Shown piece after piece: positions 17,371-52,600 of a stretch of 64,000 nt of DNA. Origin of the DNA: Branchiostoma floridae (Eukaryota > Chordata > Leptocardii > Amphioxiformes > Branchiostomatidae); NCBI RefSeq assembly GCF_000003815.2, contig NC_049980.1, positions 33,227,553 through 33,291,552 on the forward strand, given 5' to 3'. Every line of letters begins with the position of its first letter. Positions within the stretch are counted from its first letter, which is position 1. The position numbers were made by a program, and so were the translations under genes. A model generated the notes under the pieces. The model saw only the letters and a program-made list of their open reading frames with translations. It was not told where the DNA came from and did not search any database.

Positions 17371-18175
17371 CTATGTAACTTACAGTCCATCTATACGCAA
17401 AATCGCAGAAGTAATAGCGCAGTGGACCTTCCCCCTGACTCCAACCGAGGGGTATTGCCTAGTACAAGAACAAGTTGTGCCGAAAGGCAGATTAACAGTT
17501 ATGTGAGGGTGTGTGAAGAAGCAGTTTCTTACTGTGTGGAAGCCATTTATCCACATCCAAAATCGCAGCAATAAGAGCGCAGCGCACCTCCCCCGGACTC
17601 CAACTGAGAAGTATTGCCTAGTACAAGAACAAGTTGTACCAAAAGGCAGATTACCGCTTATGTGAAAACGTGTGACATAGCAGTTTCTTACTGTGTGGAA
17701 GCCATTTATCCACATCCAAAATCGCAGCAATAAGAGCGCAGCGCAACTCTCAACTGACTCGAAGCCAGGGGTGTTGCCTAGTACAAGAACAAGTTGTACC
17801 AAAAGGCAGATTACCGCTTATGTGAAAACGTGTGATGTAGCAGTTTCTTACTGTGTGGAAGCCATTTATCCACATCCAAAATCGCAGCAATAAGAGCGCA
17901 GCGTAACTCTCACCTGACTCAAAGTCAGGGGTGTTGCCTAGTACAAGAACAAGTTGTACCAGGAGGCAGTTTACCGCTTATGTGAAGACGTGTGATAGAG
18001 TTGTTTCTTACCGTGTGGAAGCCATTTATCCATACCCAAAATCGCAGCAATAAGAGCGCAGCGCAACTCTCAACTGACTCAAAGTCAGGGGTGTTGCCTA
18101 GTACAAGAACAAGTTGTACCAGGAGGCAGTTTACCGCTCATGTGAAGACGTGTGATGAAGCGGTTCCTTACCGTG
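17371..18175 (-). repeat. 160-bp tandem array copied from a HERC1 exon end and its splice donor
   Basis: The motif TGTGTGGAAGCC (or CGTGTGGAAGCC) recurs at 17531, 17691, 17851, 18011 and, in the genuine exon, 18171, an exact 160-bp period, plus a more decayed copy from about 17371. Read on the HERC1 strand each unit repeats the exon end GGCTTCCACAC followed by a GTAAG donor and ~140 bp of intron. The decoy donors lie downstream of the true donor at 18171-18170. Confidence 0.85.
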
Positions 18176-18355
18176 TGGAAGCCGAGGTTTCTCAGGAGCG
18201 TCTTCATCAGCATCTCTGCCAGGTGTGTGTCGGGGGCAGGGGGGGTGACCCCCCTGGGGGAGGGGGTGTCCATGTCCAGGGGGGCGGAGAAACCCAGGAG
18301 GGAGGCGACATGCGTGTTGTCCTGGAGACTGGTCAGGATGATGCCCAGCTGCATC
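18172..18355 (-). CDS. HERC1: Last HERC1 exon visible in the window
   Basis: The frame reads RMQLGIILTSLQDNTHVASL, then a proline-rich linker and DTHLAEMLMKTLLRNLGFHT before GTAAGG. The acceptor that keeps frame with the phase-2 donor upstream is GCAGAG/GATG, so the exon starts at 18355 rather than at the nearby CAG. The linker is encoded by a run of C-rich sequence and is shorter than in vertebrates. No following HERC1 exon was found in the 18 kb to its left. Confidence 0.88.
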
Positions 18356-21300
18356 CTCTGCATACCATAATGATGATAATGATAATTAACAAGAGCAATG
18401 TGTCGATGAAGGTTAGACATCCAGGAAGTAAGATAAAGTTTGGAGACAGTCAGACTTTTCAGACAGCATCTGCCATCTGCATCTACATGACTGGATAAAA
18501 ACTGGATTTACAAGATTTATAACAAAACTCAGAATTCATGATATTGGTATCTCAAATCTTGAGATGTTACACACCGAAAGTTTTTCTGTGCACATAAATT
18601 TTTAGGTTAGGTGCACCAGTACACTTGTTCCCCAAAATGAATTTCAAGCCCTGTATTAGGGCATAAGACAAACCACAAAATGAAGGTAACTTTGAAGTTT
18701 GACTTACTAGTACTATTTAGAAATGTTATGACAAAGGTGAGTTAAACCTGTTATGCAAACCATAAAAAACAAAACTGACCTGTCCCTTGAGAGAGACTCC
18801 CACCTGGCTGGACCCTGAGGAAGCAGCTGGTGGAGAAGCTCCATTCTTTCCCTTAGTGGTGGCAACAGCAGAGGAGCTCCCACGGACAGGGTCTCACTCA
18901 CAGCCTGGAAATGATAATGATAAAGTCTTTATTTGTAAACTCATGGCCTAGAACACATAGATACCATTATAACTACTGAGAAGCTCCATTCTCTCCCTAA
19001 GAGGGGGCAGCAGCAAAGGTGCGCCCACGGACAGGGTTTCACTAACAGCCTGGAAAGAATAATGAAAAAGTCTAAATTTGCAGGGAACACATAGATATAA
19101 TAAGTGGTGTTTAACAGTTCAAGTTGGTGGAGAAGCTCCATTCTCTCCCGTAGAGGTGGCAACAGCAGAAGAGCGCCCACCGACAGGGTCTTACTCATGG
19201 CCTGGAAACGATAATGAAGAATTCTTTACTTGTAAACTACAAACATGCTTGGGAATGTTCAGATATGATTTTTGCTGGTGTTCAACAGTACAAGTTGGTG
19301 GAGAATCTCCATTCTCTCCCTTAGAGGGGGCAGCAGTAGAGGTGCGCCCACAGACAGGGTCTCACTAACAGCCTGGAAATGACAAAATAAATTCTTTACT
19401 TACAAACACATAGCCTAGAACACATAGCTACAATAACATGTTGTTGGACAGTACAAGTTGGTAGAGAAGCTCTATTCTCTCCCTTAGAGGTGGCAACAGC
19501 AACGGTGCGCCCACTGACAGGGTCTCACTAACAGCCTGGAAACAATGAGTATAAAGTCTTTACTTATAAACTCATGGTCGGGGACACATAGATATGATAA
19601 CTGGTGTTCAACAGTTCAAGTTGTTGGAGAAGCTCCATTCTCTCCCTAAGAGGGGGCAACAGCAGAGGAGCTCCCACGGACAGGGTCTCACTCACAGCCT
19701 GGAAAAGATCATGAAAAAGTCTAAATTTGAAGGGAACACATAGACATAATAAGTGGTGGTTAACAGTACAAGTTGGTGGAGAAGCTTGATTCTTTCTCTT
19801 AGTGGTGGCAGCAGAGGAGCACCCACGTACAGGGTTTCACTCATATCATGGTCATGAAATGACAATGATAGATTCTTTATTTGTAAACTCATGGCCTAGA
19901 ACACACAGATACATGTACTAATATAACTGGTGCTCAATAGTACAAGTTGGTGGAGGAGCTCCATTCTTTCCCTTAGATAAGGTAGTGCAGGAACAAGAGC
20001 TGACACCTAGCTTACTTTACATGTACTGCAGCATATTTGGACTCGTACTGGCTTTTACAACTGTCTAAAANNNNNNNNNNNNNNNNNNNNNNNNNNNNNN
20101 NNNNNNNNNNNNNNNNNNNNNNNNNNNNNNNNNNNNNNNNNNNNNNNNNNNNNNNNNNNNNNNNNNNNNNTGGGGCTGTGGTACTTACTTGGAGGTAGGG
20201 AAAGGTGGCGGTGGGTTGGGACTGTGGTACTTACTTGGAGGTAGGGAAAGGTGGCGGTGGGTTTGGGCTGTCAAAGCCGTCGCAGTAGCGCTCCAGAAAC
20301 ATGCGCAGGTGGGTGAAGGTGCTCTCCTGTAGGTCCACACAGAATGGGCGATGCCACGCCACCACCTGCCTGGGGAACAGGAAAACAATAAATAAAGTAT
20401 GGTGATTTTAACCAAATGTTGCTTGTCATGTTCGAACAGACGTTCCAAAACCTGAAATGCCTCTCTCCGCTAGTGGAAGGACCTGTTGTCTTCAAACTAG
20501 CACTCTAGAGCCCATTCCTTAATTCGCTTACTTAACTGATGTCACCACCAAAAGGTTTGAAAGTTCAGTTCTCTAGAAGTGAATACTCGCAATATGCTGG
20601 TCTTCAGGATTTGGCAAACACTTTTTCGAACACATTCTTCGTTTACGGACGAGTGCAATGAAGTTACAGTTTGTGAGTAAAATACCTCCTATGACAAAGG
20701 AAGGTTATGTGGTCTATTGAGGATAACAAAAGAAGAAGAAGATGTATTTTAAGAACACCACATTGTACATTATATAGCTTACCTATCTGTGGGCAGGGCT
20801 GTCCATGCTAGACTGTGGGAGGTGCCTGCAGAAATCTGGTGCACGGTGACTCCGTCCAGGCCAACCACTTTCTTCGGCTTAGTGATGGGGCTTTGGGAGT
20901 GGCCCTGTCCACACTGGCCCATGGCATTGTTGCCCCATGCATAAACTTCATTGTCTGAGGAAAAGAAGAGAAGCTCTAAATAAACTTTGCAGAGGACACA
21001 TCAGCATTACTAAGACTGATACCAGTACTGATATCGGTATGCATCTATATCTGTATAGTCAGTATAACCAACCTTCGGCGTAACACACCAGCTTCACAAG
21101 CACGCATTGCGGCAGCAGCTGGTTATATTACACTGAATGACATGTCACACATAACCTAAAAGTTTGTTCATGAAGCTGTCAGCATAGATTGATTTCTAAT
21201 AATAGCTCTTCATTGCAATTCATCATTGCAACTTGGTTTTCTAAGTTTTTTCATCCCCTTCTGCCAGGGTCCTGTCTGAGGGGCCTTGATAAATACAAGC

Positions 21301-24300
21301 AAAATGTGCCCCTGAAATGCAGGAAATGAAGTTTCAGATGGTCAAGATTTCAATTTTTCTCTGGACGTCCCTTGCGACGGCTTGCGCCTCTGGCGCACAC
21401 AACACTTCGGCACTCGTCGCCATCAAAAATCTCTTCCTCTGACAGAAAATTGTCATTACATTTAGCATAGTCTACCAGCAAAGTTTATCCCTCAAAATGC
21501 AGAAAATCGTGTCTCAGAGGGTCCAAACTTCATCATTTGAATGACATTTCTCCAGACCTACCTTGCGACGGCTCGTGCCATGCCCGGCGCTCGAAATCGT
21601 GGAAATACGTTGGGGGCGTCGCCGCCCTCAAAACCATGTGAAGTTCTAATAGAAAGGCCATGAGCATGCCCCCGGACCCCCAAGGATTACGTTGATATAG
21701 TTCACCCTCCCCATACTGAGAAATTTTCTGCACCCGCCTCTGTCGTGTGATTCCATGTTCGCACGAAGTTTAAGAAAATAGAAACTAAAATTGGTATAAA
21801 TATCAATCCTGCGTGCATCTGTTCTTTGTATACGGAATGGTTCACGGACGGCAACGGGATAAAACATTACGATGTTTACTTTCGTGACAGCGGGCTCTCT
21901 GCTGCATATGACGCAATCATGGTGGCGCAAATTTTTTTTGGCAAGTTTGTAGGTTGCAATTGGCCGAAATAACTCCCGTTTTGGAAAGATTGAAGCAGTC
22001 TTGAAGCGGTTTTCGAAACGATATCGCTAAAATGAACCCAAGTCTCTTCCATCTACAACATTAATTTGTTTTCTTTTGTGTAAATTTCGTACATGTGTAG
22101 TGGAAAAGACCGCCCAAGTTGGATTACCGCCCCTCCCCGCCCGCTTTTCTCTTCGTTGATGTGGACGCATAAAATCCAAATTTTTTTTGCCTCACAGAAT
22201 GCGGGAAATTTCGTTTTAGAGGGTCAAAAATATCAAAATTTCCCGGGTAGCATGCCCCTAACCCCGAGACCGGTCGGGCCTTCGACCCTCCGATCCCTGG
22301 ACGGCCTTTAGCAGCTAGCCGTCGGTCTGGCGGAAACGCTCAGTTTCGTGATCTTGCGTATCAGTAAACGTTACCAGAGACTTTTTTTCACGTAGATCGG
22401 AGAAGTGATATCAGACAAGGTAAGTCTTATAACCGTTGCAACGTGAGTGTAACAACATCAAGTGCTACATGTTTGTATATATGTCATCCAAATGAAAACT
22501 CGGCTGTAGTAAAACTTTGGGTGATAACATATGCCCCAGCAGGACTCCAACGTGCGTAATTTGTTGACGCGCGGGTCTTGACACCCCGGGCCGATCGTCG
22601 TCACGTTCAAACAACGCTACCGCTATTGTTATTACTATATTATTTAATGACAGACTGTGTGTAAAGGAAACGGCAAGGAAAAATTTGGGGGGGGGGGGCA
22701 TTGAAAAATTTTTTACCAGACCTATTTTGCACCAGCCCTCTCCCCCCAGTAAATAACGTCAGGTCCCTTATGATGAGTTAGAGATGGTTTGTTTGTTTGC
22801 CTGTAACAATGGCGTTGTCGGCAGGATTGTCCTTACCATGAGTGAGGGCCAGACAGTGGCTGTCCCCACAGGCCACATCTACTATCCTGGTGTTGGCCAG
22901 CTCCTCCACCAGCTTGGGTCGGAGGGCGGTGGACTCAGGTGACCCACAGCCCAGGCAGGCGCCACACCCCCACGCAAACAGCTGCGGAAGGATTGAGCAA
23001 AACACAAACTTTTGTAATCAAGCACTTTTGGGATGACATTGAAAAATAGATTTGCTTGTAACAGTTGTACTCTATTAACTTAAACAGGGCTAGAAAAGAA
23101 ATGCTTTTTCTGCATACCTGCTCTGGTGTAGGTAACATTAAAAATTACCTGCACCAAACAAATTTTACCTGCACCACTCTGAGTTTAGTAAGCATGGATC
23201 ATGTTGTGGAACCATTGCTATTTTTTCATTTCATTTTATACTAAGAAGGTAGTAACACAGTCAATGCAGCTAATAACAATCCTGCACAGCTGCAGTTTTA
23301 CCTACACTAACCTGCATATGCAGGTAGTATTTTGAGCCCTGTTTGAGTTTAATTATCACAGGCTCAGAAGTAGTAAAAAGGACAAAGAACTCACCTGTCC
23401 AGTTGAGGTGAGAGCGAGTGAGGACTGACTTCCGCAGCACACCTTCCGTATGTACAGCCCCACCAGGGCTTCGATCACCTTAGGTTTGTAAACTCGGTTG
23501 GTGTCTCCATGGCCCAGTTTCCCTGTAGGTCACAAATAATGATACATTATAAACTAACTATTTTTCCAAAGGTCATGTTCGACAAGTGTATGATATCTCC
23601 AGAAACTTAAAAAGTTATTTAGTACCTTTATTAAATTTTACTACTGTAATTCTTGAAATTTTTCCTGATGGTTTACGTTTGCAGTTTTGCAGTTACCTCT
23701 TTACTGCAAACATGATGTTTCCATTCTAAATACTAAATCAAATTCATGAGAACTTAATGCCAAACAATCAGATAGGATCCACTATCTTTCAGTCTCAGTC
23801 ACTGATGAAAGATGTTTTCTGAAGCATCTGACTGTCAGACAATATATCCATTTGTAACATGGTCCCATCACAAAGAGAGACGCATTTTTTAAAATGATCA
23901 TCCCAGTGCCTTACCATTGTCCCCTCCTCCGAACGACCAGACCGTCCGGCCGTCCTGCGAGACGACGATGGTGTGCGAGCTCCCACAGACCACCTGGCCA
24001 CCATTGGTGATGTCCTTCACCAGCGTGGGCAGGTTCTTACTATTGCTGTCTCCGTGCCCCAGCCTGCCGTAGTCCCCCTCCCCCCACGTGAACAGCTCAC
24101 CGTCCTCGGTCACTGCCGCGCTGTGGCGATAGCCCGCGGAGATGCTCTTTACAACCTAGAGAGAGAGAGAGACAAACAATCAGCACTCACAATATTGCTG
24201 AGAGTAAAGAAATCTGCAGGGAGGGCCTGCTAACCCATTAACGTGCTTGAGGTACCACATCGAACACAGTCATCACTCAGAATATTGCTGCAAGTAAACA

Positions 24301-27300
24301 AATCTGTATTCATACAACTGGCCTTCAGTGTAATACACTAGCTTCTGTATCTGTATTTGTGTAGCCGTTTTATAACCACCCTTCAGCATAATATACCAGC
24401 TTCCATATCTGAATTGTCTGTGTAACCAGTATGACTGCTCTGAAGTGTAACACACCAGCTTCTGTATTTGTACCTTTGTAACCAGTATGACTGCTCTGAA
24501 GTGTAACACACCAGCTTCTGTATCTGTACCTTTGTAACCAGTATGACTGCTCTGAAGTGTAACACACCAGCTTCTGTATTTGTACCTTTGTAACCAGTAT
24601 GACTGCTCTGAAGTGTAACACACCAGCTTCTGTATCTGTACCTTTGTAACCAGTATGACTGCTCTGACTCTACAGACGCAGAGTATATGGTGTTCTAAAG
24701 CTCTCACCTTGCCCTGTAGGGCCCCCTGTATCTGTTTGGGGTACTTCTGTGTAGAACTGTACCAACAGTCTCACCTTGCCCTGTAGGGCCCCCTGTATCT
24801 GCTTGGGGTACTTCTGTGTGGAACTGTTTCCGTGTCCCAGCTTCCCGTAATCCCCATCTCCCCAGCTGAACACTTCTCCATCAGCCGTCAGCGCTAGTGT
24901 GTGTCCGTCAGAACCTGGGAGGATAGATGTTCCGAGATTTATTAGGAGTAGGGGTGGGTTCCGGTACAGAAATTTCAGGTCCAGGTATGGTTCAGATCCA
25001 GAGGATCAGGTCCATCCAGGTCCGAAATGACTATAGACTCTATCGCCCTTGTTATTTTCTTCGACCAGTAAGCCCCGAAACGTGTGAATACCTGATGAGA
25101 TATCTGTTCATTTTCCAATAGGTCCAAATCTGGTCCACTGTGTGTTTTTTCAGGATCGGTTCTTCGGGACCGTTCCGGACCGGTCCAATGAGAAAAACCA
25201 GTTTTGTACCGGTACAATGAACCAGTACCCAGCCCTTATTAGGACTCTATGTTTATGGATTCATACCCTTCTGGTGAATAGTGGATGGGACATAGTTAAT
25301 AAGATTTTGTATCAGTAACTATCACAAGTTTACCTTCTGAAGTGATTAGTCATCAGTATCGATCACGACAATGGTCGTTGAAAATTTTATCCGTGTGTAC
25401 TTTTGTGTTGGAAAAGAGTTTAGCATTGTAACTAGTACATATAATGTTTATAAAAAGACTCTAGTATACAGTTATAATCATGTAACTTGTATCTTTACCA
25501 TATTTTGTCTTATCCTTACCTTATCCTTATTATTTATATAAAAAGCCACAAGCAGACTGATTTGAGTTTTTCCTGGATGAATTAAGGCCCAAAGAAACAA
25601 ACAAACCCTTGGAGGATGAGATCTTCCGGATGACGTAACGGTGGTCAAAGTTCAGTTTCTTGAGAGTTGTCTGGTTGTTGGAGTCCCCGAGGCCAAGTCG
25701 GCCGTAGCTGCCTTTTCCGCATGCCCGTACAGTTCCATCACTATAGACTACAAATGTACAGTACTGTCCTGCCTCAATCTGGTAAACAAAACAAGCGAAG
25801 GTTATCAGTAACTGTACTTGAATTGACTTGACTTGGCAGCAGGGCAGCCTTTAGTAAATGAATAAATAAACAAACTCATAATCAATCAAATAATAGAGTT
25901 TATACAGAAAAGAATGCATACAAAATACATACAACATGAATAACTATATACAAATGATTAAATAATAAAATAAATGAATTACAAAATATATAAACAAGTA
26001 GATCAGCTTAATCAAAATGTGTTTCAAGTGCTTTGAACAGCAATGGTTATATATGTGAAAAATTTCTGCAAGTTCAATAGCATACAGTGGCAATAGCCAT
26101 GCATCTTCAAACTGGTAGAAAATAGGCTAGCACACAAAACTGCTAGAAAAGATGACATGGAAAACTTATACATGTACATAAGTAAGAAAAGTTTAAAAAA
26201 AAGACTCAACAAGGGAACTAGAGCTTGCAGGGTATCATTATGATATAATATTTTAGATATGTCCCATCTCATTGAGGCTATTAGTAGAGGCGGTTAGTAT
26301 CAGTTATTTTTTTCTCATGACATTTGTTACTTGTTGAACGTAGGACTACAAATGGCTGAAAAAAATACAAGGCTATAATGACGTAATCATGAGAAGTCAC
26401 AATTTCCGGCTGACGACAGGAATACACTTTTGACTGAAAAAAACTATAAATTAAAGTGATGATATAGCAAACACATTCTGTTAGTGTTACCTCTAAGAAA
26501 AATGGAGGTATTGTTTTGAATCTGTGTGTGTGTGTATGTGTGTGTGTGTGTCTGTGTGTGTGTGTGCCTGTTTGTGTGCTTGTCTTTCCAGATATTTGTG
26601 GCCAGCATACATTAAGAACCTCTTAATGGACTGTAACAATATCTGATATGTGAGTAGGTCTTTAGAGGACAAAGGTCATGGTCAATTTTGGGCATCCTCT
26701 TGTGTGATCTTCTTACCTGAAGTTCTCCTCCTCAGACAACAAACAAAAATGTAAAGAAAAGTTGTAAACATGTATCATCGAAGCTGAGATACACAGAGAC
26801 CACACAAAATCAGGATGGCGAAGTGTTATACATACATTCAAAATGGAGCTTACTGTCTGAGCATTAGCAAATGCAGGAGACAGTTTCGGCTGTAGGATCT
26901 TCTCCTGGCTGCCCTCGGCCAGCTGGTGGCTGCTGTTGCTGCCCCACACGTACACCTCGCTGTTCTCCGTCACCATGTTCCCGTTCTCACCCGTGCTCGA
27001 GTCGTCGATGGGCACCGGCGAGGGGCAGACGCAGGACCGCGCGTAGTCTGATGCCAGCCAGGCCACCTGCGAGGGCAATGATAACAGCTGTAAATGTTCT
27101 ATTTACGCAGTAAACCCAGCCAGTTTGGAGTATTGACACCTTTTATAGCTAGCATCAAAATTTCAAATATGCAATACAGCAAAGGTATCTTTTCTGAGAC
27201 TTGCAAAGGCAAGGAGAACACCTGTAAGTATGCAGTCCTATTGTTCTATTCAAGCAGCAAAACCAGCCAGTTTGGAGTACTGACAAATTGCAATGGACCC

Positions 27301-30300
27301 AAATTCTCTAGCTAGCATCAAAATTTCAAATATGCAATACAGCAAAGGTATCTCTTCATGTGAAGGTCTTCTCTTCATGATCTGGACTAGAATCTCCAGA
27401 CCCAACAAGCAAATTTCCATCCTGAGACAGAGGGACGGGTCCTGGAGAGCCTGATCTGGGTGCTCCCTGTGGTAAGGTTACCAAGCTGACAGAGTAGATG
27501 AAGAGAGACGAAGATGAAACTCCTTACCTCCACCATCAGCACCATCCCAGCCAGGTACAAGTACCTAAAACTCTGTAACCAAGAACCATACCTGTACCTG
27601 ATATTACGCACAGGTACACATCCTTTAGTTACCAGGCTACCTTACAGGATATCTAGATGTTCCTTACCTCTTCCATGAGAACCATCCCAGCCAGGTATAG
27701 GGGAAACATCCCATCTGAAGTCTTGTTTGTGTCGGTGATCTGATGATCTCTCTTGTCGTTCCCAGAGCCACCCTGTGGAAGAATGTACATATAGAATATG
27801 GGTTCAAGTGCTTGTACAAACAGGTGTTCCAACACCCAAAACACCCTTTGTCCACTTGAAGTCAGAGTGCTTATTAATGTGACGTCACCACCAAAAGGTT
27901 TTAATGCACAGTTCCCCAGACGGGTAGCAGAAGCGAACATAGGGTCGAACTACTTCCCAGATGGTACCCAGGCTACTGCCATGTCATACCTGCCAAGTCT
28001 CCCTTGCAAAGAAGACAAAAGAGACTCGGCAGCTATATAAAGTACAGTATGAATACCAGCCTACAACCATCTACAAAGCACCATTCCTTAAGAAAAGCCC
28101 CAAAGCACATGAATTATGTGTGGTCCATAAACTTGTACCAGAAGCTGTAACAGGGTGATCCTGGTCCTGAACAGCCTTTCTACTGGTGGGACACATTCGG
28201 ACTCATCCCCATACCTTCTCTAAAAGGACCAATCACTTTTGTTAAAAATGTATGAATCAAGGTCACAACACTTGGTATGTAGAATGGAAGATTAGCTATG
28301 ATAGATAATCTCCAAGCAGATCCTATTGTACCATAAGATAGTATCAAAGATTAGTATACTGATGTAGATAGTTTGTAGTTGCTAGTGATACATTATTTGC
28401 CATACATTATACCTGTTACAATCGTTGTGCAATAAACTTGACTTGACTTGACTTGAAAGCTGGCCAAGGGGTATAGCTGGCAAAGGGAGTCAAATGGGCA
28501 CCAAAGCGTACACACTCTAGGGCCGGCTTTACTCCTCTGCCAGCTTTTGATACTATCTTATGCTACCATTCTGCTTGGAGATTAATGATTGACACATATA
28601 GAAACTTGAGGAAAGATACCAATTATGAAATCTGCCCCTTAAAAAAATATTGTATCAATACCAAACCATGCATTCTGTGACTTCATCTCTACCAAAATTA
28701 GAAATGTTCTTTTCAATCTGTCAAATAAAAAAATAACTTTCTCTGAGTCTGAATAAATATAAAACGTACATGCTACAGCAAATAAAAAGCGAAACAAAAA
28801 TTAATCATTTTTAATGCATAACCAAAAGACTAATAGCTTGACCAATTCAAAATGCTGTAGAACATCTTACCACAGAGTTCTCCATCACTTGCAGAATCTG
28901 TTGGAAGAAGTCGTGAGAAATCTGTCCCAGTCTGTCCTCTTCTCTCTCCACCTGTGGAAACAGTAAGGGGGACAACGTGGCCTTGACGTTAAAAGTTGTT
29001 GACTGAGAATCTAAAGGTTCAGGGTTCAAAGCCCCAATGTTATGCCCTTGGGATTGGAAATGGCATTCAACACCTATTTTTCCACACAACTCAGGTGAAT
29101 ATGTCTTGAGTATCTAGCTTTGGTCGGAGATGTCCTCTGGGATGGGACGTAAAGCCTGAGGTCCTGTGTTTGAGAACAGCCACACCTTAAGCATATTAAA
29201 GAACCCACTGTACTTACTGAAAAAGATTACTAGTAGGAGTTCTTTCCAGAATGCCTGAGTGTAAAAAAAACCTTACAGCTCTATCTTATTGAGCTTGTAA
29301 AGTACATATGGTGCATAACTGGTGTGCTATCCTTAAGGGAGGTTTACTGTTTATGTCAACAAACAAACAAACAAGCAAACAAACAAACAAACACCTGTGC
29401 TGCCAGCGCTGCTGACGCGGCCAGCGCCATCTCTATCCAGTCTAGCATGACAAACAAACAAACAAGCAAACAAACAAACAAACACCTGTGCTCCCAGCGC
29501 TGCTGATGCGGCCAGCGCCATCTCTATCCAGTCTAGCATGACAAACAAACAAACAAACAAACAAACACCTGTGCTCCCAGCGCTGCTGATGCGGCCAGTG
29601 CCATCTCTATCCAATCAAGTAGGTAGCGCAGCGAGCCCCTCTGTGACGCCAGCCCCAGGAGCAGCTCTGCAGCCAGCCTCTTTCCCAGACTGTCCGCACC
29701 CGAGGTCGGCATGGTAACACTCTTCAGGAACTCCGTCACCTGTTGGTGTTTGTATTTGTATTTGTATTTATTGACGATGAAACAATTCATTACCCTGGGT
29801 TAGCCTAGGCAGCTCACCTACAAGAGTCTGACTAACATAAACTTGTTTACATTACCTACATTTCTTGGTGACTCGCAGCAAGTGATAAAGGTCCATAATG
29901 TAGGGGGTTAGGGGCATCCACCTTCCATAGTGCAGAGTGTTCAAGAATTTTAAGTTAAATTTTGCATTCTTAAGTATTTAACTGTCAGAGAGGTCACAGA
30001 AATCTAGTGGTATCCCTGGTCAATCAGAATTTTATGCATGTCAGAGGATCTGCCCCCCCAGTGTAAGGGTGTCTAGTGCGTCCAATTTCTAAGAAATTTT
30101 TAAGAAAAGCGTGTCCAAATGACGCCTGGACGCATGTCTGGCTAAAAGCCTGGATAAAACTGTTCTTGTTACCTGCTTCAGACAGTCCAGTCCCATGGGG
30201 GGCATCTTGGTCTCATTAGCCAGTGACAGGGGCGGCAGGGAGCTCACAACGTCCATGGCGGTTTGTATCACGTCGTTGCAGAGAGAGAGGTTTCCCCCTG

Positions 30301-32333
30301 GCGGAGACTGGAGCCAGCTTTGCCGCAGGAGCGCAAACAGCAGGCTGAGACCCGTCCGCACGCCCATCTCGATCAGGGCATCGTTTCCCGTGCGCGTCTT
30401 CTCCCCGCCGGACTTCTCACTGTTGACGCCCGCCTGTGTCTCCTGTGTCTGCTGCTGTTGTCTCACCTTAAGAAGAAAGAAAAAAAAACAGTCATGCCTC
30501 CTCTCAAGTACAAAAGTTAACAACCTAGGATTGATGTTATCAAAATTTCTACAGTAAATGTTTGCGGTAGTTTTATATTCATGGTTTTCGCGGTGGCCAC
30601 TTTACCGTGAACTTAAAACCCACTGCAAACATTTATCTATTATAGTAAGTGACAACAGTCTATGGCCCTACCGCGAATGTGAATGATTTTAAATACCTCC
30701 TTAACTTTGTTATGGCAACATGATGCAAGTGCAAGAGCAACTCAGGACATAGTATTAGTGCCCTGCCAATCTGTACATGTTGAGCGACAAATAAACCATT
30801 ATTACAGATACCTTCTCCTTGTCGTGGTACTTGTTCGACACAGCGTAGAATATCCGCTGCAGCACGACGAGCCTCTTCCGGAGGGATGAGGAGAACGGAG
30901 AGTCGGAGCACACACTCCGGGCGAGCGTGAGCTGGCTGTTCAGGAGTGCCCGTAGGAAGTGCTCCTGCTCCTCCTGGATGAATGAATGAATGAATGACTT
31001 TACTGTATTTGCTTTCATTTGGTTTTGCTAGCAGATTAATTGTATGATTTTGACTAATTTCTTTATGATCTGTAGATCATGTTTAGTTTTGTCTAATTCC
31101 AGTTTTTGATGTTAAGATCAATTGTAACGTTATGATGATCACAGGGTTATATTATTTTCACTTGGTTTATTATTGTTTGATGTATAATCTTCATATCCAT
31201 TTAATTGTATTATGATTTGTAAATTTTGACGGGGGAAGAGTTTGTATAAGCCACATGGCCTTTTTCTTCCCCTTTGCACGTCCTGTTGTTTTCTATAATT
31301 TTCTGTATGTTATCATTTTTTAAAGTGCAAAATAAAAAAATCAATCAATATTTGTAAAAACGTTGCAGCTGGATAGCTGAACTGCCAATTACTTACAGGA
31401 GTCAAGCTACAAGCATATCTCCACATAAATAGATTAGTAAAATTATCGGGACTAAAATAACTTATCCATTGAATTTGGAGTAAATACAGCATAAATCTAC
31501 AAGACAATTTACTTAAAGACAATGTTAATGAATGCGAGGCTAATACAAGAGAGGAAGATCATGAGCCTACAGAACAAGATCGTTGGTGTATACTGAGTAT
31601 AGCAGGGCTCGAAATTCATTTTTGGGATTAGGTGCACTGGTGCACCCAGCTTAAAAAATTGGGTGCACCAAAAAGTTTTTGGGTGCACCACATATATGTC
31701 AGTAGAATGTCAGAAAAACCTATCAACAAGTACCATGACAGACATCTTTATTATATCTCTAACACTTAGATGTCAAAAATATGATGTATACTAGTATACA
31801 TTGATATCTTACATACATAAACCCAAGAAAATATTTTGGTGCACCCTGAGCACCCACAGAAAATAATTGGGTGCACAGTTCCAATTTTGGGTGCACCTGG
31901 GAGCACATGCACCCAGTATTTCGAGCCCTGGTATAGTGACTTCCGTACACAGTTAGAGTACTAATAGTCTCTAGTATACACATTCAGCCACTAGTCATCA
32001 CTAGCATACAGCAGACCTTCCGAATACACAGTCAGAGTACTAATAGTCTCTAGTATACACATTCAGCCACTAGTCGTCACTAGCATACAGCAGACGTAAG
32101 GCACAAAGGGGATGAGGGACCTGGCAAAGAGTCTCCCTCTCGAAGTCCGGCAGCTGCGGCCCCTTCAGGTGCAAGGCCTGCTGGGGGATGGCGATGACCT
32201 CCTTGTTCGTGACGAGACGGTCGTACAGCATGATGACCCCCTCCCGGGTCGCGATGCTCTCGCAGTCCTCCGACACCCAGGAGGTGTTCAGGTGCTCCAT
32301 CCACTTCAACTTGACGGGCGGGTTCACCGCCAT
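18172..32333 (-). CDS. HERC1: HERC1 homologue, N-terminal part (16 exons seen)
   Basis: The spliced frame reads the N-terminus of HERC1, a giant HECT-type E3 ubiquitin ligase with RCC1-like domains that works in the cytoplasm and on Golgi membranes. Exons in transcription order: 32121-32333, 30812-30973, 30173-30466, 29569-29739, 28871-28951, 27668-27772, 26854-27066, 25607-25778, 24775-24914, 23915-24155, 23395-23522, 22837-22981, 20783-20954, 20235-20369, (missing exon), 18780-18904, 18172-18355. Phases agree at every junction and all splice sites are GT-AG. The family has about 4,860 residues in vertebrates; about 895 are visible here. The rest, with the SPRY, WD40, second RCC1-like and HECT domains, must lie left of the window or be lost. 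One exon of length 1 modulo 3 is absent between 20235 and 18904, probably in the N gap. Confidence 0.93.
18780..18904 (-). CDS. HERC1: HERC1 exon after the propeller
   Basis: The exon reads AVSETLSVGAPLLLPPLRER and continues to WESLSRD, matching the segment that follows the first RCC1-like domain in vertebrate HERC1. It is bounded by CCAG at its 5' end and GTCAGT at its donor, and leaves phase 2. Its 5' part, with the acceptor, is repeated about seven times in the intron upstream (18970-19985). Confidence 0.9.
18970..19985 (-). repeat. Tandem array (~145-170 bp units) copied from a HERC1 exon start and its acceptor
   Basis: About seven units repeat the CCAG acceptor plus the first ~70 bases of the exon at 18780-18904 and some upstream intron. 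Shared motifs on the plus strand are GGAGAAGCTCCATTCT, AGAGG(T/G)GGCA.CAGCA, GC(G/T)CCCAC.GACAGGGT and CAGCCTGGAAA. Copies sit near 19046, 19199, 19369, 19532, 19695, 19850 and 19970. They lie before the true exon in the direction of transcription, so their acceptors are met first. Confidence 0.85.
20071..20170. other. Assembly gap (100 N)
   Basis: The gap is flanked on the right by a 46-bp tandem repeat copied from the end of a HERC1 exon. An expected HERC1 exon is missing in this interval, so the gap probably hides a collapsed repeat and that exon. Confidence 0.9.
20176..20267 (-). repeat. 46-bp duplication of a HERC1 exon end and donor, running into the gap
   Basis: CTGTGGTACTTACTTGGAGG...GGCGGTGGGTT occurs at 20176 and again at 20222, an exact 46-bp period. 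The copy at 20222-20267 is the genuine exon end (TCCAA/GTAAGT on the minus strand). The other is a decoy, and more copies may lie inside the N gap. Confidence 0.85.
20235..27066 (-). CDS. HERC1: HERC1 exons 7-14: first RCC1-like domain, seven blades
   Basis: Eight exons encode a complete RCC1-type beta-propeller, which in HERC1 binds ARF and Rab small GTPases. The blade signatures run in order: VYVWGSNSSHQL, VRACGKGSYGRLGLGD, VFSWGDGDYGKLGHGN, LFTWGEGDYGRLGHGD, VWSFGGGDNGKLGHGD, LFAWGCGACLGCG and VYAWGNNAMGQCGQG. The last exon here (20235-20369) continues past the propeller with VVAWHRPFCVDL and a proline-rich end. Introns are in mixed phases (0, 1, 2) and several carry tandem copies of the neighbouring exon end (24702-24760, 20176-20221). 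Confidence 0.93.
21055..21165. repeat. Dispersed repeat shared with 45375-45475
   Basis: GCGTAACACACCAGCTTC...AGCACGC...GCGGCAGCAGCTGG and TTATATTACACTGAA recur in the same order at 45395-45470. The core AACACACCAGCTTC also forms part of the 56-bp minisatellite at 24310-24665. No function is apparent. Confidence 0.55.
21170..22830. other. HERC1 intron, no exon seen
   Basis: The long intron between the exons at 22837-22981 and 20783-20954 shows no recognisable coding segment. It holds a G-tract near 22687-22698 and stretches around 21350-21620 and 22190-22300 that share words such as TGCGACGGCT and look like repeats. Confidence 0.4.
23085..23341. mobile_element. CAGGGCT...AGCCCTG MITE in a HERC1 intron
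   Basis: The element begins CAGGGCTAGAAA and ends TTTTGAGCCCTG, with internal ACCTGCACCA motifs on one side and CTGCATATGCAGGTAG on the other. A close relative spans 44637-44971. Clear target duplications were not found. The CAGGG ends suggest hAT. Confidence 0.6.
24310..24665. repeat. 56-bp minisatellite in a HERC1 intron
   Basis: At least four near-identical units contain ACTGCTCTGAAGTGTAACAC, ACCAGCTTCTGTAT and TTTGTAACCAGTATG, with two more diverged units at the left end. The array lies just 37 bp from the decoy exon end at 24702-24760. Confidence 0.8.
24702..24760 (-). repeat. 67-bp-spaced copy of a HERC1 exon end and donor
   Basis: TCACCTTGCCCTGTAGGGCC followed by CCCTGTATCTG and GGGGTACTTCTGTGT occurs here and, as the real exon end, from 24771. 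On the minus strand both read ...CAGGGCAAG/GTGAG, so a second intact donor sits 67 bp downstream of the true one. Confidence 0.88.
25920..26830. other. HERC1 intron, AT-rich, with (TG)n
   Basis: No exon is seen between the exons at 26854 and 25778. A TG microsatellite with interruptions lies at about 26521-26580. Confidence 0.45.
27521..27567 (-). repeat. Partial copy of the HERC1 exon end at 27668 with donor
   Basis: TCCTTACCTC...CACCATCCCAGCCAGGTA occurs here and at 27661-27705. On the minus strand the copy reads LYLAGMVLM.E followed by GTAAGG, as the genuine exon end does. Similarity is limited to about 45 bp, and the copy lies 140 bp downstream of the true donor. Confidence 0.75.
27668..32333 (-). 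CDS. HERC1: HERC1 exons 1-6: N-terminal helical region
   Basis: These six exons encode about 342 residues before the first RCC1-like domain. The start ATG at 32333 sits in a good context (CACCATGG), and an acceptor at 32380-32379 (TCAACAG) shows that the 5' untranslated region is split by an intron. Landmarks shared with vertebrate HERC1: PPVKLKW near the start, GPQLPDFERE, SNKYHDK, DALIEMGVRTGLSLLFALLRQSW, SLPPLSLANE and PPMGLDCL, SGADSLGKRLA and LLGLASQRGSLRYLL. Every junction in this block is phase 0. The exon ends at 29569 and 27668 have partial copies in the following introns. Confidence 0.92.
28306..28584. mobile_element. TAATCTCCAAGCAGAT MITE, copy A
   Basis: The left end TAATCTCCAAGCAGATCC and the right end TCTGCTTGGAGATTA are inverted repeats, flanked by nearly matching ATGATAGA and ATGATTGA. 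Two further copies (49340-49516, 61716-61895) carry perfect 9-bp duplications, which suggests Mutator-type transposition. It lies in a HERC1 intron and is enlarged relative to the other copies. Confidence 0.7.
28970..29215 (+). repeat. tRNA-derived SINE in a HERC1 intron
   Basis: The segment contains a box-B-like GGTTCAGGGTTCAAAGCC, the ATGCCCTTGGGA motif and a diverged AAAGAACCCACTGTACTTA tail, as in the copies at 8185-8395 and 39862-40076. Confidence 0.55.
29391..29620 (-). repeat. Three-unit array (83-91 bp) of a HERC1 exon end and donor with (CAAA)n
   Basis: ACACCTGTGCT(C/G)CCAGCGCTG is found at 29391, 29482 and 29565, the last being the real exon end. Each unit repeats about 50 exon bases (WIEMALAASAAL on the minus strand), the donor CAG/GTGTTTG and a CAAA-rich spacer. 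Two decoy donors follow the true one. Confidence 0.87.
31020..32100. other. HERC1 intron 1
   Basis: No exon is seen. It contains a GGTGCAC-rich MITE at 31603-31930 and two tandem copies of a ~65-bp unit (31925-32000 and 32010-32095) with AGAGTACTAATAGTCTCTAG in common. Confidence 0.5.
31603..31930. mobile_element. CAGGGCTCGAAAT MITE with GGTGCACC repeats
   Basis: The ends CAGGGCTCGAAAT and ATTTCGAGCCCTG are perfect inverted repeats. GTATAG flanks both sides, probably what remains of an 8-bp duplication. The inside holds many GGGTGCACC words in both orientations. Partial relatives lie near 10550, 18575-18660, 60070-60380 and 62020-62110. Confidence 0.75.
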
Positions 32334-32379
32334 GGTGTTAACTTTTCAAGTATACTTCTGATTTACTAGTTCTTCTTCC

Positions 32380-37856: not shown

Positions 37857-39806
37857 TTACTTGATTAGCTTTGGAAGTAAGTTTGTAAGAGCCGCACAGA
37901 TAACAACACTGTCACTGAGTAGAGGGGCAAATGTTAATGGACAGATTTGGCTGAGAATTTGGAAGTTCTTGATTCTTTCAATTGCACGTTCTACATGAAT
38001 TCTTAGAGTTGATATCTGTCTGGCATCTTGGACGATACGCCCCGGGAGTTGTTTCCTTCCTGTGGTAAATGGTGGCATAACTAGTGTTGCTCCTTTCAGG
38101 GCAAGTTCCTCAGAAATGGTGAATCCCCGATCTGCCATAATCATATCACCATATTCCACTTTGTTATAGAAACGACTTTTTAGCGTAATGTCTTTATCAG
38201 AAATTCTTCCACCCCAGGAACTGGACAGAAATGACACTGCTCCATAAGGTGTAATACCTACCAGAAATTTGAACGTATGATGGTGTTTGTAGTTACTCCA
38301 GGTCTTTGCTCGGGTCTTTAAATTGTATGGCCTCTCAGTGAAAATCTCTGAGCAATCAATGATGACTCTACAGTTTGAGTATTTTTTTTTCCGAAAATTT
38401 TTGGGAAGATTGCGCTTTACGGTTTCCTTGGACGGCCAATGAATCAGGAACTTTAGTCGGACAGCTAAGATTGGAATACAACGGTTTATGACTTTTGAAA
38501 CTGTGGAGGCAGAAACACTAAATCTCAAAGCTAGATCAGCATTTTTGAGGCCTAGTCTCAACTTCATGAGAGTCATGAGTATTTGATCCTGCTGACACAT
38601 GGACTTTAGAGGAGCAATGAAATCACTAACAAGTCTAAACACAAACATAAACAGTGCAACAGTAGGTATTCCAGTGAAGAGCTTGCATTTTGCATCTGTG
38701 AGATTGGAGGCTGATGTTGATGATTTCTTGATTTGTTCTTGAAGGTGATCACGTTCTTCCCTAAGGTTGTCAGCTTCACTTTGAAGGGACTCGCAAAACT
38801 GTTCCAACTTACATTTCTCCTCTTGTACTTTTGTGAGCTGTTCTCTCAGAGTCTCTACACTTTCAGGAAGGGGGTCTCTCAGAGTCTCTACACTTTCAGG
38901 AGGAGGGTCAGCGATCATTTCTTCATCTGAAATAAAGCAAATCCGAAGTTCAATGAAAGTGCTATGTGATTATGAGTGTCATATATCTGAACTGAACTGA
39001 ATGTTCTAAACTCTGATTCATATGTATGTATTGTTGTTTCAATATTTTACTCATGCAGGTTGCATGCTTCTCTACTTGATTCACATCTATATCCCCACTC
39101 CGAAAACCAAGCGGATAAACTTTGTAGCAAGTAGTCTTGTGTGTATGGTATGTGATTTATGTTGAATAAGTGACAAGTGATAGATTTACTTGTTGAGCAA
39201 GAATGATAGATTAAACTGTTGATCAAGAATTTATATGTTTAGGATTACTGATTGTATCCATTAGACACTTTTCTTATTCCCTCTGTAATGCCCTTACCAT
39301 TTAGTGATGTAGGTGGGGCTTCATTCTCTGATGACACCCGCAGCCTTTTTGCTGCACGCATATACCTGCAAACAATGAAGCATGTTGTAAGTTGTAAATC
39401 AAAGTTGCATGCTTTGTTTCCTACATACATTCTGTTAGCATAGCATTTAGTGATTACTGCTGTGAATGTTATGAAATATAAAACATTTGACTAGGTGTAA
39501 ACTCTAACATGAGTAACTTACAGGATCTTTGTGAGATTTAACTGAATCCTTGGTAAAACTTTCATGGTCATCTTCTCAGGCAAGGAGGTAGAGTATAGCA
39601 ATGTTTCACACAGGCATGAACAGCCTGCCTGCATGAACAGCATGAGCAGTAAATCAAATTTCAATAAAGAAACATTGAAACCCCCAATGTTACCTACCGA
39701 TCTTTCTTGGCAACTGGGTTTCTTGAACGATTGCAACTTGCTGAGGTTGGGAGGTTAAACAAGCTTGGGACGTAATCTGGATCTGCAGGGTCTTTAGAAG
39801 GGTTCC
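37857..39806 (-). CDS. THAP/DDE transposase of an ISL2EU-type element
   Basis: Three joined exons are visible: 39698-39806, 39298-39365 and 37857-38926, with matching phases (2, 1). The first ends a THAP-like DNA-binding domain (YVPSLF resembles the AVPxxF box); its zinc-binding start is not seen and may be in the N gap at 40077-40221. The last exon has a leucine/glutamate-rich coiled coil, a helix-turn-helix (LGLKNADLALRFSVSASTVS) and a DDE_Tnp_4 catalytic core: DCSEIF (first D), MADRGF (second D) and RIHVERAIERIKNF (E). A short repeat, PPESVETLRDPLPESVETLR, lies near the start of the exon. The frame is open to TAA with no lesion. It converges on the nuclease gene, with 244 bp between the two stops. 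Enzymes of this fold cut and paste DNA using two metal ions. Confidence 0.85.
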
Positions 39807-39861
39807 CTGCAATGCAAGAAGCAAAGAACTTGTCAGTATTATAAACATGATTTTAAAATGA

Positions 39862-40076: not shown

Positions 40077-40221
40077 NNNNNNNNNNNNNNNNNNNNNNNN
40101 NNNNNNNNNNNNNNNNNNNNNNNNNNNNNNNNNNNNNNNNNNNNNNNNNNNNNNNNNNNNNNNNNNNNNNNNNNNNNNNNNNNNNNNNNNNNNNNNNNNN
40201 NNNNNNNNNNNNNNNNNNNNN
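40077..40221. other. Assembly gap (145 N)
   Basis: The run of N directly follows a SINE tail. The 5' exons of the transposase (start of its THAP domain) are expected near here. Confidence 0.9.
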
Positions 40222-41584: not shown

Positions 41585-41586
41585 GC

Positions 41587-43327: not shown

Positions 43328-43329
43328 CG

Positions 43330-46680: not shown

Positions 46681-46688
46681 GAAATATA

Positions 46689-49600
46689 TTAGTCTGAGGG
46701 ACAGTGTCTGACGTGAAAATTAACTACATATTCAGCGTTTGTTCTCTGTACGGAGATGGCGAACGGCTCGTACGGGTGGAACGTAAAAGCAACCAGGCGG
46801 CGCGCGGTGGGCGGGGTCTGACGGCCTGGCATCCCCGCCTGGATCTTAAACTTCAGCAGACCGGAGTCTCTGGCGTAGAACCTGTGTGTACGATGAAGAC
46901 GGGAAAATAAATTCAGCAAAATTATTGAACTCTCTTGATGACTCCTGTTTCCCTCCTGTCTACAACTTATCAGCCTTCAAAACAAATGTCCACCGCTAAC
47001 TCCCTGCACAGTTTCCACCTTCTTAGTTCACTGCCTTGAAGTGGTCTCATGACGTTGCTTTGAACAATCTTGTTAAAAAAAATTTCAAGAGGAAAATATG
47101 GGTGCACATCAGGGCTGTCTTCAGCCTTAAATTTCTTTCCGTCCCACTCATTGTTTGGGAGCCAATATTGTTGATTTTTGTTGTCAAATCTCTTGTAATG
47201 AGCATATAAAAATACAGTTTCACCATTTTTGGGACGGACAGGGTGACATTTGTTTTTTTTCCGTCCCAACAAGTAAAGAGACAGTCAAGTATTCAACACC
47301 CAAAAAGAGCTATCACTCTAAATACAGCACTTATCATGCCTTTAACTAGAACCTCCAAGAACAACATATTTTTTTCTCTAAATTTCAAAGCTGGCATTTG
47401 TCATTTTAACACATACACATAATTATTGACCACTGTCTTTCAACCCAAGAGGCAAAAAACAGTTAACAATGGTAACTATGTCATGTGTTTATTTATTTTT
47501 GCATGTTTTCTAAAAAAATATTTTGTTAAACCAAGGAGGTTATATAACCTCCTTGGTTTAACACGCATGATAACCCTGAAAAAGGATACATAAGTGCATG
47601 TCTCCCTGTGAATGTGCTGGTACCATTAGTGGTCTCTATACACATCTGGGCTAATCAGTCTGAACATAATTAGTCATCACCTGCTCATTAGCAAACGAGG
47701 CTGTGTGTGAGCTAATTCAACTGACAGTTACATTGTACATGTACATGCTAAGGTAAAATTTGGTGATGCTTGCCTCCTTAATAGCGGGCTGGCCTATTAT
47801 GAGTTGGGAAATTTTTGTGCTTGTCATACACTGTTTTCTGATGGTGTGACAGTTCTCATTCGCCAAATAGCAATTACTCAAGCAACTGTATATGATTTTT
47901 GATCCAGTTGCTTGAGTTATGGCTATATGATCTTATTACCTGGATGTCTAACCTTCATCGACGACAATAATCTCATTGTTCACAGTTTCTAAAAGAGCTG
48001 GCAAACACGTAACCATGCACAATGACAACTAACATACAATCATACAATAGCATATGACAAGCACAAAAATAGCCAACCTCGTGAGCCTACTAGGGCTGCT
48101 ATCCTTTCTAGTGGTCTTTATTCACTCACTTTAGTACTTCTCTTCGATGATTTTAGATTTGTATGCTCAACAACCTGTTACTCGTACTGACAAACAATCA
48201 GAAAACAGCATAGACATATACATAGGGCCATGACAACTGACATGCAATCATACAATAGCATATGACAGGCACAAAAATAGCCAACCTCGTGAGCCTACTA
48301 GGGCCGCTATTCTTTCTAGTGGTCTTTATTCACTCACTTTAGGAATTCTCTTTAATGATTTGAATTGTTGTATGCTCAACAACATGTTACTCGTACTGAC
48401 ATACAATCAGAAAACAGCATAGACATATACGTAAGGCCATGACAATTGACATGCGATCATACAATGTCACATGACAGGCACAAAAATAGCCACACTCGTG
48501 AGCCTACTAAGGCCGCTGTCCTTTCTAGTCCTTTCTTTATTCACTCACTTTAGTACTTCTCTTTAATGACTTGAGATGTGGTATGCATCTGTTACTCATA
48601 CTGACATACAATCAGAAAAAGGTATATACATAAGCACAAATAAAGTCTAACTTGTAGGTACTGTATATCAAGGAAGAAGCTATCACCATAGCTGAGCTAT
48701 GGTGATAGCACCTTCCCATTGGTGCTCACAGTGTGAATATTAATATTCAAGATTAGAATGTCCCAACATGAGGGAAATGGACACTTGCATATGTCAAGCA
48801 TGAAAGTCGTCATCCTGGAAAATATCCCTTGCAGTGGAGAGCCACTTTGACTTTTTTCCAATACTAGCCATTAGGCCACAGCAAGTAAACTTTATGTGGG
48901 AGTAATGATTCATAATGTGCAAAACATTTTGTTTCCTCTCAAGATGGTCAACATGACAAGAAAATACAGAAAATGTGAAAATATGTCTTGTGGTGGCACT
49001 TGTAGTGACACTAGTAAGGTAGTCATGAATGTACTAATAGTTGTAGAAATGAAACTAGTTCGGTAGAGGCAACACTAGTGTGGTGGTTTTGTGTGTAGCT
49101 GCCAGCTTAGTACCAGTTTACCACATATGTATGGGTGTCACTTTGTGCGTATAAGAGTATGTGAGTATAAAAGACTTGTTGCTTAAATTCTAATTACAAA
49201 GTTTATGGTCCCTATTTTGAAAATTTGGGCATCCATTTTTTTTACCCATCTTATATTTCTTCGCACTCTCACATTAGATTGGGAAATTACAGGATGTCAT
49301 CCATAAAATTTACTTCCTGCGGCCTTAGTGAGCAAGCAGTAATCTCCAAGCAGATTCTACAATGGCATAAGACAGTACCAAACTGGCCAAGGAGTGTACT
49401 AGTAGTCAGCTAAGACTAACACACTCCTAAGTCCTAAGCCAGCTTCACTCCTCTGCCAGCTTAAATTGATACTATCTTATACATCTTATGCTACCGAAGG
49501 ATCTGCTTGGAGATTAAGCAAGCAGCATTACCTGATGGGATGGTCCCCGCAAGCCTTTGGTCTCTCCATGACCGACACCCACTTGTCGTCGTAGCTGAAG

Positions 49601-52600
49601 AGCGAGAGGTCGAGGTAGGGACTGCTGCTATAGGACTGGGCACTGATGGGCAGCTGGGCAAGCAGGCGCTTCACTGCCTCCGTCTGACCACCGTACTTAG
49701 CATGGATGATGGTGTGTTTAAATCTGTGGGGAACAGGGGGAAAGGTTAGGACATATTGATGAAGACATCCATGTAATCAGTCTGAATTGTCTTACAACGT
49801 TTCCTATTGGACATCTGAAATTGTCTTCATTCAGAGTACAAAAGACCTGTTTCTTCCAGATCACTTCAGTGTCACTGACGAAGGATAGTGGATTCTATCC
49901 GATACGTCTGACCGTTTCAAAACCATATCCAGTTGCTTGAGTAACTACCTTTTGGCGTATCTTATTACCTGGATGTCTAACCTACATCGACGTATCCATG
50001 TAATAAGATATGCCAAAAAGCAGTTCCTCAAGCAACTTATCCGCTTCCGTCTGACCACCGTACTTAGCATGGATGATGGTGTGCTTAAATCTGTGGGGAA
50101 CAGGAAAAAAGATCTCTAAAATATCTCAAATATTGCTACCATTGCCACTGTTTCATATAATGTTGTACTGTAACAAGATCATTTTATAGAATATCAATGT
50201 TTCTATCGGCCCATCGTACTTAGCATGGATGATGGTGTGTTTAAATCTGTGGGGAACAGGAGGAAAGGACATATTGATAAAGACATCCATGTAATAAGAT
50301 ATGCCAAAAAGCAGTTACTCAAGCACCTTCACCGCTTCCGTCTGGCCACCGTACTTGGCATGGATGATGGTGTGCTTAAATCTGTGGGGAACAGGAGGAA
50401 AGATCTCTAAAATATTACAGTGCACTATTCAGTTCAGTTCAGTCATCGATCAGGTGATGTCATTAAGTCACTCCAGATGGCTCTCACGCATGACTGACAT
50501 GAGGTCCCTGTCTTGGAGACCAACATCCTCCTCGATCAACCTCCAAGCACATTGCAACAGGACTAGAATTTGTTTAGGGCATTACAGAACAGAATGCCAA
50601 CTGCATATCAAAAATTGCTACAATTGCCACTGTTTCATATAATACTATGCTGTAAAAAGATCATTTTATAGAATATTAATGTTTCTATCGGCCCACCGTA
50701 CTTAGCATGGATGATGGTGTGCTTAAATCTGTGGGGAACAGGAGGAAAGATCTCTAAAATATCTCAAATATTGCTACCATTGCCACTGTTTCATATAATG
50801 TTATGCTGTAAAAAGATCATTTTATATTAATGTTTCTATCAGGCCATCGTACACTTGTATTTAGCATGGATGATGGTATGTTTGAATCTGTGGGGAACAG
50901 GAGGAAAGGACATATTGATGAAGACATCCATGTAATAAGACATGCCAAAAAGCAGTTACTCAAGCAACTTCACCGCTTCCGTCTGGCCACCGTACTTGGC
51001 ATGGATGATGGTGTGCTTAAATCTGTGGGGAACAGGAAAAAAGATCTCTAAAATATCTCAAATATTGCTACCATTGCCACTGTTTCATATAAATGTTATG
51101 CTGTAAAAAGATCATTTTATAGAATATTAATGTTTCTATCAGCCCATCGTACACTTGTATTTGGCATGGATGATGGTGTGTTTAAATCTGTGGGGAACAG
51201 GAGGAAAGGACATATTGATGAAGACATTCATGTAATATAAGATATGCCAAAAAGCAGTTACTCAGGCAACTTCACCGCTTCCGTCTGGCCACCGTATTTG
51301 GCATGGATGACGGTGTGTTTAAATCTGTGGGGAACAGGAGGAACGATCTCTAAAATATCTCAAATATTGCTACCATTACCACTGTTTCATATAATGTTAT
51401 GCTGTAACAAGATCATTTTATAGAATATCAATGTTTCTATCAGCCCATCGTACACTTGTATTTGGCATGGATGATGGTGTGTTTGAATCTGTGGGGAACA
51501 GGAGGAAAGGACATATCGATGTAGGTTAGACATCCACGTAATAAGATATGCCAAAAAGCAGTTACTCAAGCAACTTCACCGCTTCTGTCTGACCACCGTA
51601 CTTAGCATGGATGATGGACTTTTTTTATTGATGGTGTGTTTAAATCTGTGGGGAACAGGAGGAAAGGTTACTGAAATGTTATCGAATGCTGTGCAACAGG
51701 ATTAGAACTTTGATAAGGCCATTACAGAACAGAATGACAACTGTGTACTGAATAGAACAGAGAACCAATTAAGTCTGTTCTATGTGGACAGGTTGTCGAC
51801 TGGTCGCTATATGGAAAGGATTCCTAATGCTTATATCAATGGGGAAAATTAAAGGGGCCAAAAAAACTTAACTCTGATGTGAGATAACTTACTAGTATGT
51901 AGATGTGGTCACTTGTGCTGGTTTGACTGTATATCACATTATCAGTGGCCAGGTATTCCTTATATAGGGGTGGTCACATGTACATGTTTATTTATCTATC
52001 AATCTTGTAGAGTCGTCCCTTCAGACTTCAGTTTTCGAGAAATAGATTTCTACGGGAGCCGTTCAACTTAATTAAAAACTTCACTGAACAGTACACTAAC
52101 ACATGTAATAAGAGAATAGGTAATAAAAACTTATTACCCCAGTTTATTTTCATATCATAGTCATACTGCAATGTAGATTGGTGATATTGTACTATAGTAG
52201 AAGCCAGTTAATTGCACAATGGATTAACGCACACTTCTGTTAACTGCACGGAATCTCCAAGCCACAAACAGGTGCGGTCCAGCTAGATAACTTCGCATTA
52301 TTGCACCAGCCGGATAATTGCACGAAATTCACTGGCAAATAGGCCGTGCAATTAAGCGGCTTCTACTGTAGTATGTAAACCTGCCTTCTCTGTATCTGTC
52401 GAGCGTAGATGTTGCTTGAGGCAGAGCATGTGAAGTGGACGGGCTGCGAGTGGAGGGAGGCGTTCCTGAACAGGTCACAGAAGTTCTCAAACAGCTCCAA
52501 CAGCTCTTCTGACGTGTTCTCAAACACCGCCACAACGTTCGTCGACATCATGTCGTAGACCACGAAGAACGAAGGCTGTGAGTTTGGGTCCTGGACGCGT

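Follow-up and report, generated by a model that had tools for sequence, protein, structure and literature searches.

Seven exon edges of HERC1 and DET1, in a 64,000-nucleotide stretch of the Branchiostoma floridae genome (the whole stretch analyzed, referred to below as the window), are confirmed to carry copies in their neighbouring introns. These copied edges are almost certainly amphioxus mirages, which are minisatellite-like duplications of intron-exon boundaries (accessible parts of PMC3087553 and PMC3902484, as in all citations of these papers below), and HERC1 and DET1 are thereby further loci of a known kind. Unexpectedly, the intronic copies have changed in the manner of protein-coding DNA. 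Such change in mirage copies was found neither in the accessible parts of PMC3087553 and PMC3902484 nor in the open-licence literature searched, and the pattern constitutes a new lead.

The two genes were recognized by homology: four joined RLD exons matched PDB 4o2w HERC1 (E = 3e-82), and two DET1 exons matched Pfam Det1 (4e-122 and 1.5e-31). Exon edges were placed by tblastn with human HERC1 and DET1 protein sequences. A purpose-written small gene finder provided a second source of edges; its ab initio predictions include false exons in repeat copies, and the HERC1 and DET1 edges were taken from the protein match instead. At three of the 35 edges (26853, 25780 and 52384), none of which has a copy, the AG or GT is slightly displaced from the set position. 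Copies were sought with a 100-base probe over approximately 2.5 kb each way, and the extra copies at each edge all reached E = 1.4e-9 or better.

Spanning copies were detected at all seven edges for which the initial annotation had claimed them, at the claimed one to ten per edge and 25 in total (2, 1, 1, 1, 6, 4 and 10, in the order given here; all on the minus strand). The HERC1 exon end with its true donor after 29569 has two downstream copies at 29438-29536 and 29367-29445 (29367..29613). That with its true donor after 27668 has one 37-base copy at 27521-27557 (89% identical; 27521..27727), which is single and lies 140 bases off rather than forming a head-to-tail array. One copy each accompanies the true donors after 24775 (copy 24702-24760, period 67; 24702..24827) and after 20235 (copy 20171-20225, period 46, meeting a gap; 20171..20271). 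Six upstream copies belong to the true acceptor of the HERC1 exon that begins at 18904 (18845..19892); they lie at 18990-19080, 19142-19238, 19313-19411, 19476-19575, 19639-19729 and 19791-19892, the last without AG. The HERC1 exon end with its true donor after 18172 has four copies with a period of 160 (17398..18183), each copied unit holding only 12 exonic bases. Finally, the true acceptor of the DET1 exon beginning at 49723 has ten upstream copies (50043 to 51670; 49664..51670), all ten of which keep the AG, and its unit of about 300 bp has a two-part structure. Periods of the boundary arrays in the window are thus 46, 67, 91, 160 and approximately 163 bp, with a unit of 302 bp for DET1. 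By their coordinates all 25 copies are intronic, donor copies downstream and acceptor copies upstream, as had been described. GT or AG is retained in 24 of the 25 copies, the outermost 18904 copy being the exception.

An assembly gap of 100 N (20071..20170) directly follows the 20235 array, and a second 100 N gap adjoins a globin array (locus L033, 1922-2021). Since these gaps touch arrays, array lengths there are probably underestimated; the claimed copy numbers were found as stated, but that of the 20235 array, like that of the globin array, is a lower bound. The gaps give a hint, though only that, of the length instability seen in mirages. Between 20235 and 18904 we would presumably expect a HERC1 exon corresponding to human residues of about 780-840. 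A tblastn search with the human protein gave no match to it in the window, and a whole-genome search was also blank, although this search was run without a positive control and shows little. The HERC1 exon that follows 18172 lies on the same contig at G000:C2:33095073, about 150 kb off, which reflects either a very long intron or a misjoined scaffold. There, three further edges in the next HERC1 exons (locus L038; C2, about 33090-33094 kb) have copies: one donor has four and one acceptor a single copy, and at a second acceptor there is a short match only.

Mirages are known from Adh3 of B. floridae and B. lanceolatum (cited in PMC3087553) and can affect both 5' and 3' boundaries (PMC3087553). 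Published units measure 10-72 and 150-160 bp; the BflGb6 mirage has units of 150-160 bp, of which its two haplotypes carry six and three, and the BflGb9 unit is 157 bp long (PMC3087553). Presenilin is cited among loci with similar structures (PMC3087553), PGBD5 carries similar repeats, and TnC is cited too (PMC3902484). The arrays in HERC1 and DET1 share the minisatellite-like tandem copying over exon-intron boundaries, at donors and acceptors and in many cases with AG or GT. The genome also holds arrays that match both published globin cases in size and position. At L037, likened to BflGb6, a globin exon start is repeated in three full copies (unit about 158 bp); at L033, likened to BflGb9, a globin exon end has a single copy, which lies 157 bases downstream. 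The likening is by unit size and position and not by published letters. In presenilin, a weak match (76-77% over 50-75 bases) marks a copy on the acceptor side. The statement in the initial annotation that no named system describes this anatomy is contradicted by the mirage literature (PMC3087553, PMC3902484). Differences from that literature are that HERC1 and DET1 are absent among the loci named in the accessible parts of the two papers, that the DET1 unit, at 302 bp and with two parts, exceeds the published units, and that coding-like change in the copies is absent from the descriptions in those same parts. With the Rogers model of intron gain by proto-splice site duplication (cited in PMC3087553) the arrays share local duplication with splice signals, but nothing in them was seen to point to a newly gained intron, as their copies lie inside existing ones. 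Ordinary intronic minisatellites have a comparable size range and local abundance, whereas the HERC1 and DET1 arrays include the exon edge and show its reading-frame pattern.

We compared exon edges with other positions, as the initial annotation had proposed a duplication process biased to exon boundaries, for instance through difficulties of replication or repair at transcribed splice junctions. The seven boundary arrays in the window, together with the three copied HERC1 edges about 150 kb off (one by a short match), speak for such a process. On a grid of one point every 25 bases, each counted if inside a local direct duplication, 327 of 2463 window points were duplicated, and within HERC1/DET1 so were 213 of 694 points in introns and 12 of 174 in exons, the window and intron figures counting the boundary arrays; the overall coverage of the introns thus argues against the bias. 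So do the edges themselves, 7 of 35 of which lie in local duplication against a rotation mean of 4.58 (sd 3.11, P = 0.29), while 36 of 250 random window points had spanning copies (boundary arrays included). In a random sample of 200 kb (four 50-kb blocks), 6 of 84 confident predicted edges were matched versus 93 of 992 random points; block B2 supplies four of the six, on predicted exons that themselves hold tandem arrays. With boundary arrays counted in the window figures, a small sample, and predicted edges in the random blocks, a modest bias may still exist. In this small sample, duplications at edges are about as common as elsewhere, the outcome that the initial annotation had named as counting against its reading. 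The initial annotation had noticed no duplications of the same anatomy away from exon edges, yet arrays of similar size occur in a HERC1 intron (24421..24667, 56 bp x 4.4) and a DET1 intron (48022..48619, 209 bp x 2.9), both without an exon edge, in the window's first HERC1 intron near but not over donor 32121 (31946..32095, 79 bp x 1.9), and at 410-988 (307 bp x 1.8) without a homology-supported exon edge. Taken together, a strong preference for edges is improbable on these data, and a boundary-directed process has very little left to recommend it. The apparently new pattern is instead tied to a known but little-studied lancelet phenomenon, which makes a boundary-specific mutation process less needed.

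The exonic parts of eight arrays (the seven of the window and globin L037) differ by 46 synonymous and 23 nonsynonymous changes, against an unconstrained expectation of about 27% synonymous (P = 6e-12); 13, 9 and 47 changes fall on codon positions 1, 2 and 3, respectively. Five further arrays (three HERC1 edges, globin L033 and presenilin), examined after the idea of a coding pattern had formed, gave 19 synonymous and 6 nonsynonymous changes (P = 5e-7), at least 22 of the 25 coming from two arrays, the HERC1 L038 donor (9:4) and L033 (9:2). Changes were counted once per column and are only partly independent, though the tests assume independence. To avoid junction mismatches, each match was trimmed by four bases at its far end; the untrimmed count for the seven window arrays is 39 to 22. 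After trimming, three of the 13 arrays (20235, L038 acc553 and L038 acc1507) have zero changes and add nothing. The top codon phase held 0.68 of changes in the eight boundary arrays versus 0.44 in 28 comparison arrays, the statistic being the best of three phases as the comparison arrays have no known frame. The 28 remain from 55 arrays after removal of 13 whose period is below 30, seven that lie in predicted coding exons (six in B2, one in B4) and seven in the window, of which six are boundary arrays and one, 14244, touches a weak predicted donor. Of the arrays kept, two (B3 20887 and B4 49708) overlap a predicted edge, and another four share sequence with predicted exons of low score. Synonymous divergence reaches 0.77.

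The pattern is seen in detail at the 18904 acceptor, where the 24-codon exonic part of the true exon was compared with copies c1 to c6. Synonymous differences from the true exon are 10, 6, 9, 8 and 4 for c1 to c5, with 0, 3, 1, 1 and 0 nonsynonymous ones; for c1, about 20 nonsynonymous differences would be expected on an unconstrained branch. Copy c6, which lacks the AG, has 3 synonymous and 5 nonsynonymous differences, so that c2 and c6, with 3 and 5 nonsynonymous differences, are the less constrained copies. Comparison between copies gave synonymous to nonsynonymous ratios of 5:1 (c1-c3), 6:1 (c1-c4), 8:1 (c4-c5) and 6:0 (c1-c5), pairs with c2 being less extreme (e.g. c2-c3, 7.5:4.5). The intron parts of c1 to c5 differ by 10-35%.

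Coding-like change in the copies could arise if they were used, that is, if transcripts spliced to them and the resulting peptide or regulated unproductive transcript were under selection. Consistent with use, the splice dinucleotide is kept in 24 of 25 copies, and in six arrays the decoys are predicted to be about as strong as the true site (DET1: true site 9.8, decoys 10.3-10.5), the seventh, 18172, being the exception. Splicing to a copy would, however, add an in-frame stop in 24 cases and a frameshift in the remaining one, and direct use is thus unlikely for all 25; moreover, Adh3 data and globin RT-PCR suggest that mirages leave splicing undisturbed (PMC3087553). We consider selection on use of the copies to be quite improbable. 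The idea in the initial annotation of decoys that selection merely tolerates is in line with that undisturbed splicing, but sits poorly with exonic parts that change mostly at synonymous sites. Could the arrays be an assembly artefact, with haplotypes or collapsed repeats wrongly set in tandem? The gaps beside the 20235 and globin L033 arrays would fit, and one draft version of the BflGb6 mirage was considered an aberrant assembly in the original study (PMC3087553). Against this, false joins of haplotypes would not readily give units of 46-302 bp that hold partial exons and differ far more than haplotypes do, the globin array was reconstructed from trace reads in that study (PMC3087553), and lancelet PGBD5 repeats were confirmed by re-examined Sanger and new Illumina data (PMC3902484). 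An artefact is accordingly hardly credible for the arrays as such; even if they are real, copy numbers in HERC1 and DET1 may be wrong.

A simpler history would have the true edge copied outward at times, the copies then drifting freely, so that synonymous differences stem from the history of the true exon. Variants common to at least two units are 21 synonymous to 1 nonsynonymous and those private to one decoy 18 to 20, as if the shared ones had arisen in the true exon. The degenerate state of the outermost 18904 copy also fits this history. Under such decay, a simple calculation sets a ceiling of about 47% on the synonymous share of differences separating a copy from the true edge, but with the true exon's own synonymous changes allowed for, 65 of 94 distinct changes in the 13 arrays are synonymous (P = 1.6e-5). 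Single-copy arrays alone show 15 of 18 (P = 0.002), and two hand-picked disjoint decoy pairs at 18904, c1-c4 and c3-c5, 13 of 15 (P = 0.002; pairs with c2 less extreme). Furthermore, synonymous divergence from the true exon is greatest for c1, the nearest copy and expected to be the youngest. One-way decay thus appears unlikely as the source of the pattern. A paralogous HERC1 or DET1 was also considered as the source of the copies and rejected, as the 18904 and 49723 DNA matches only its own arrays genome-wide (7 and 11 matches); three downstream HERC1 exons have one genome match each.

Overall, we regard as the probable explanation mirages that formed by chance capture of exon edges and then exchanged sequence with them. 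Short local tandem duplications, common in introns, would sometimes take in an exon edge by chance, and only intron-side copies would be seen if selection removes changes to the exon. The spliceosome would use the edge that is joined to the whole exon and leave the rest intronic, as the published globin and Adh3 results hint. Misaligned exchange, by gene conversion or unequal crossing-over, might then carry sequence from copies to the true edge and back, and copies might alternate as the true edge, losing amino-acid-changing mutations while there. That such exchange causes the coding pattern has in our judgement about an even chance. More tentatively, the copies may be long-lived spare edges that misaligned recombination keeps exchanging with the true one; the whole array would be under coding selection even though a single copy at a time is translated, and the true edge of a conserved gene would be replaceable from the neighbouring intron.

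Direct signs of recombination are compatible with exchange but limited. Read by eye, the DET1 alignment contains all four possible pairings of flank type with tail type when the true edge is counted along with the copies. At 18904, to which the recombination tests were confined and in which homologous columns alone were used, 9 of 103 triplets reached P < 0.05 (about 5 expected) and 2 of 103 P < 0.01; in the best triplet, c5 looks like a mosaic with parts from c1 and parts from the true edge (P = 0.0012, or about 0.12 when corrected for 103), and distances in the intron and exon parts showed no significant disagreement (P = 0.13). The evidence at 18904 is only suggestive. In B. floridae, gene conversion at heterozygous sites is orders of magnitude likelier than point mutation, a rate that concerns allelic conversion and not conversion between array copies, and heterozygosity is 3-4% (accessible parts of PMC12862219). 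As synonymous divergence of up to 0.77 far exceeds this heterozygosity, copies that exchange must persist very long while revisiting the true position. An effective size of the population near 1.7 million has been reported. The private decoy changes, with a ratio nearer to free drift, count against exchange.

Signatures of purifying selection in intronic DNA that should stay untranslated are a testable result. Should copies and true edge indeed swap positions, a natural system would be at hand in mirages for measuring the interplay of recombination, splice-site choice and coding selection, and gene finders that rely on synonymous bias could misread mirage introns.

Two observations concern the surroundings of the arrays. 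Between HERC1 and DET1, a long open frame at 37860-38969 of the window matches DDE_Tnp_4 and HTH_Tnp_4 (DNA-transposon transposase). About 600 kb off, at G000:C2:32629486-32630284, lies an array that is 71-76% like the 29569 copies, one 27-base piece being identical.
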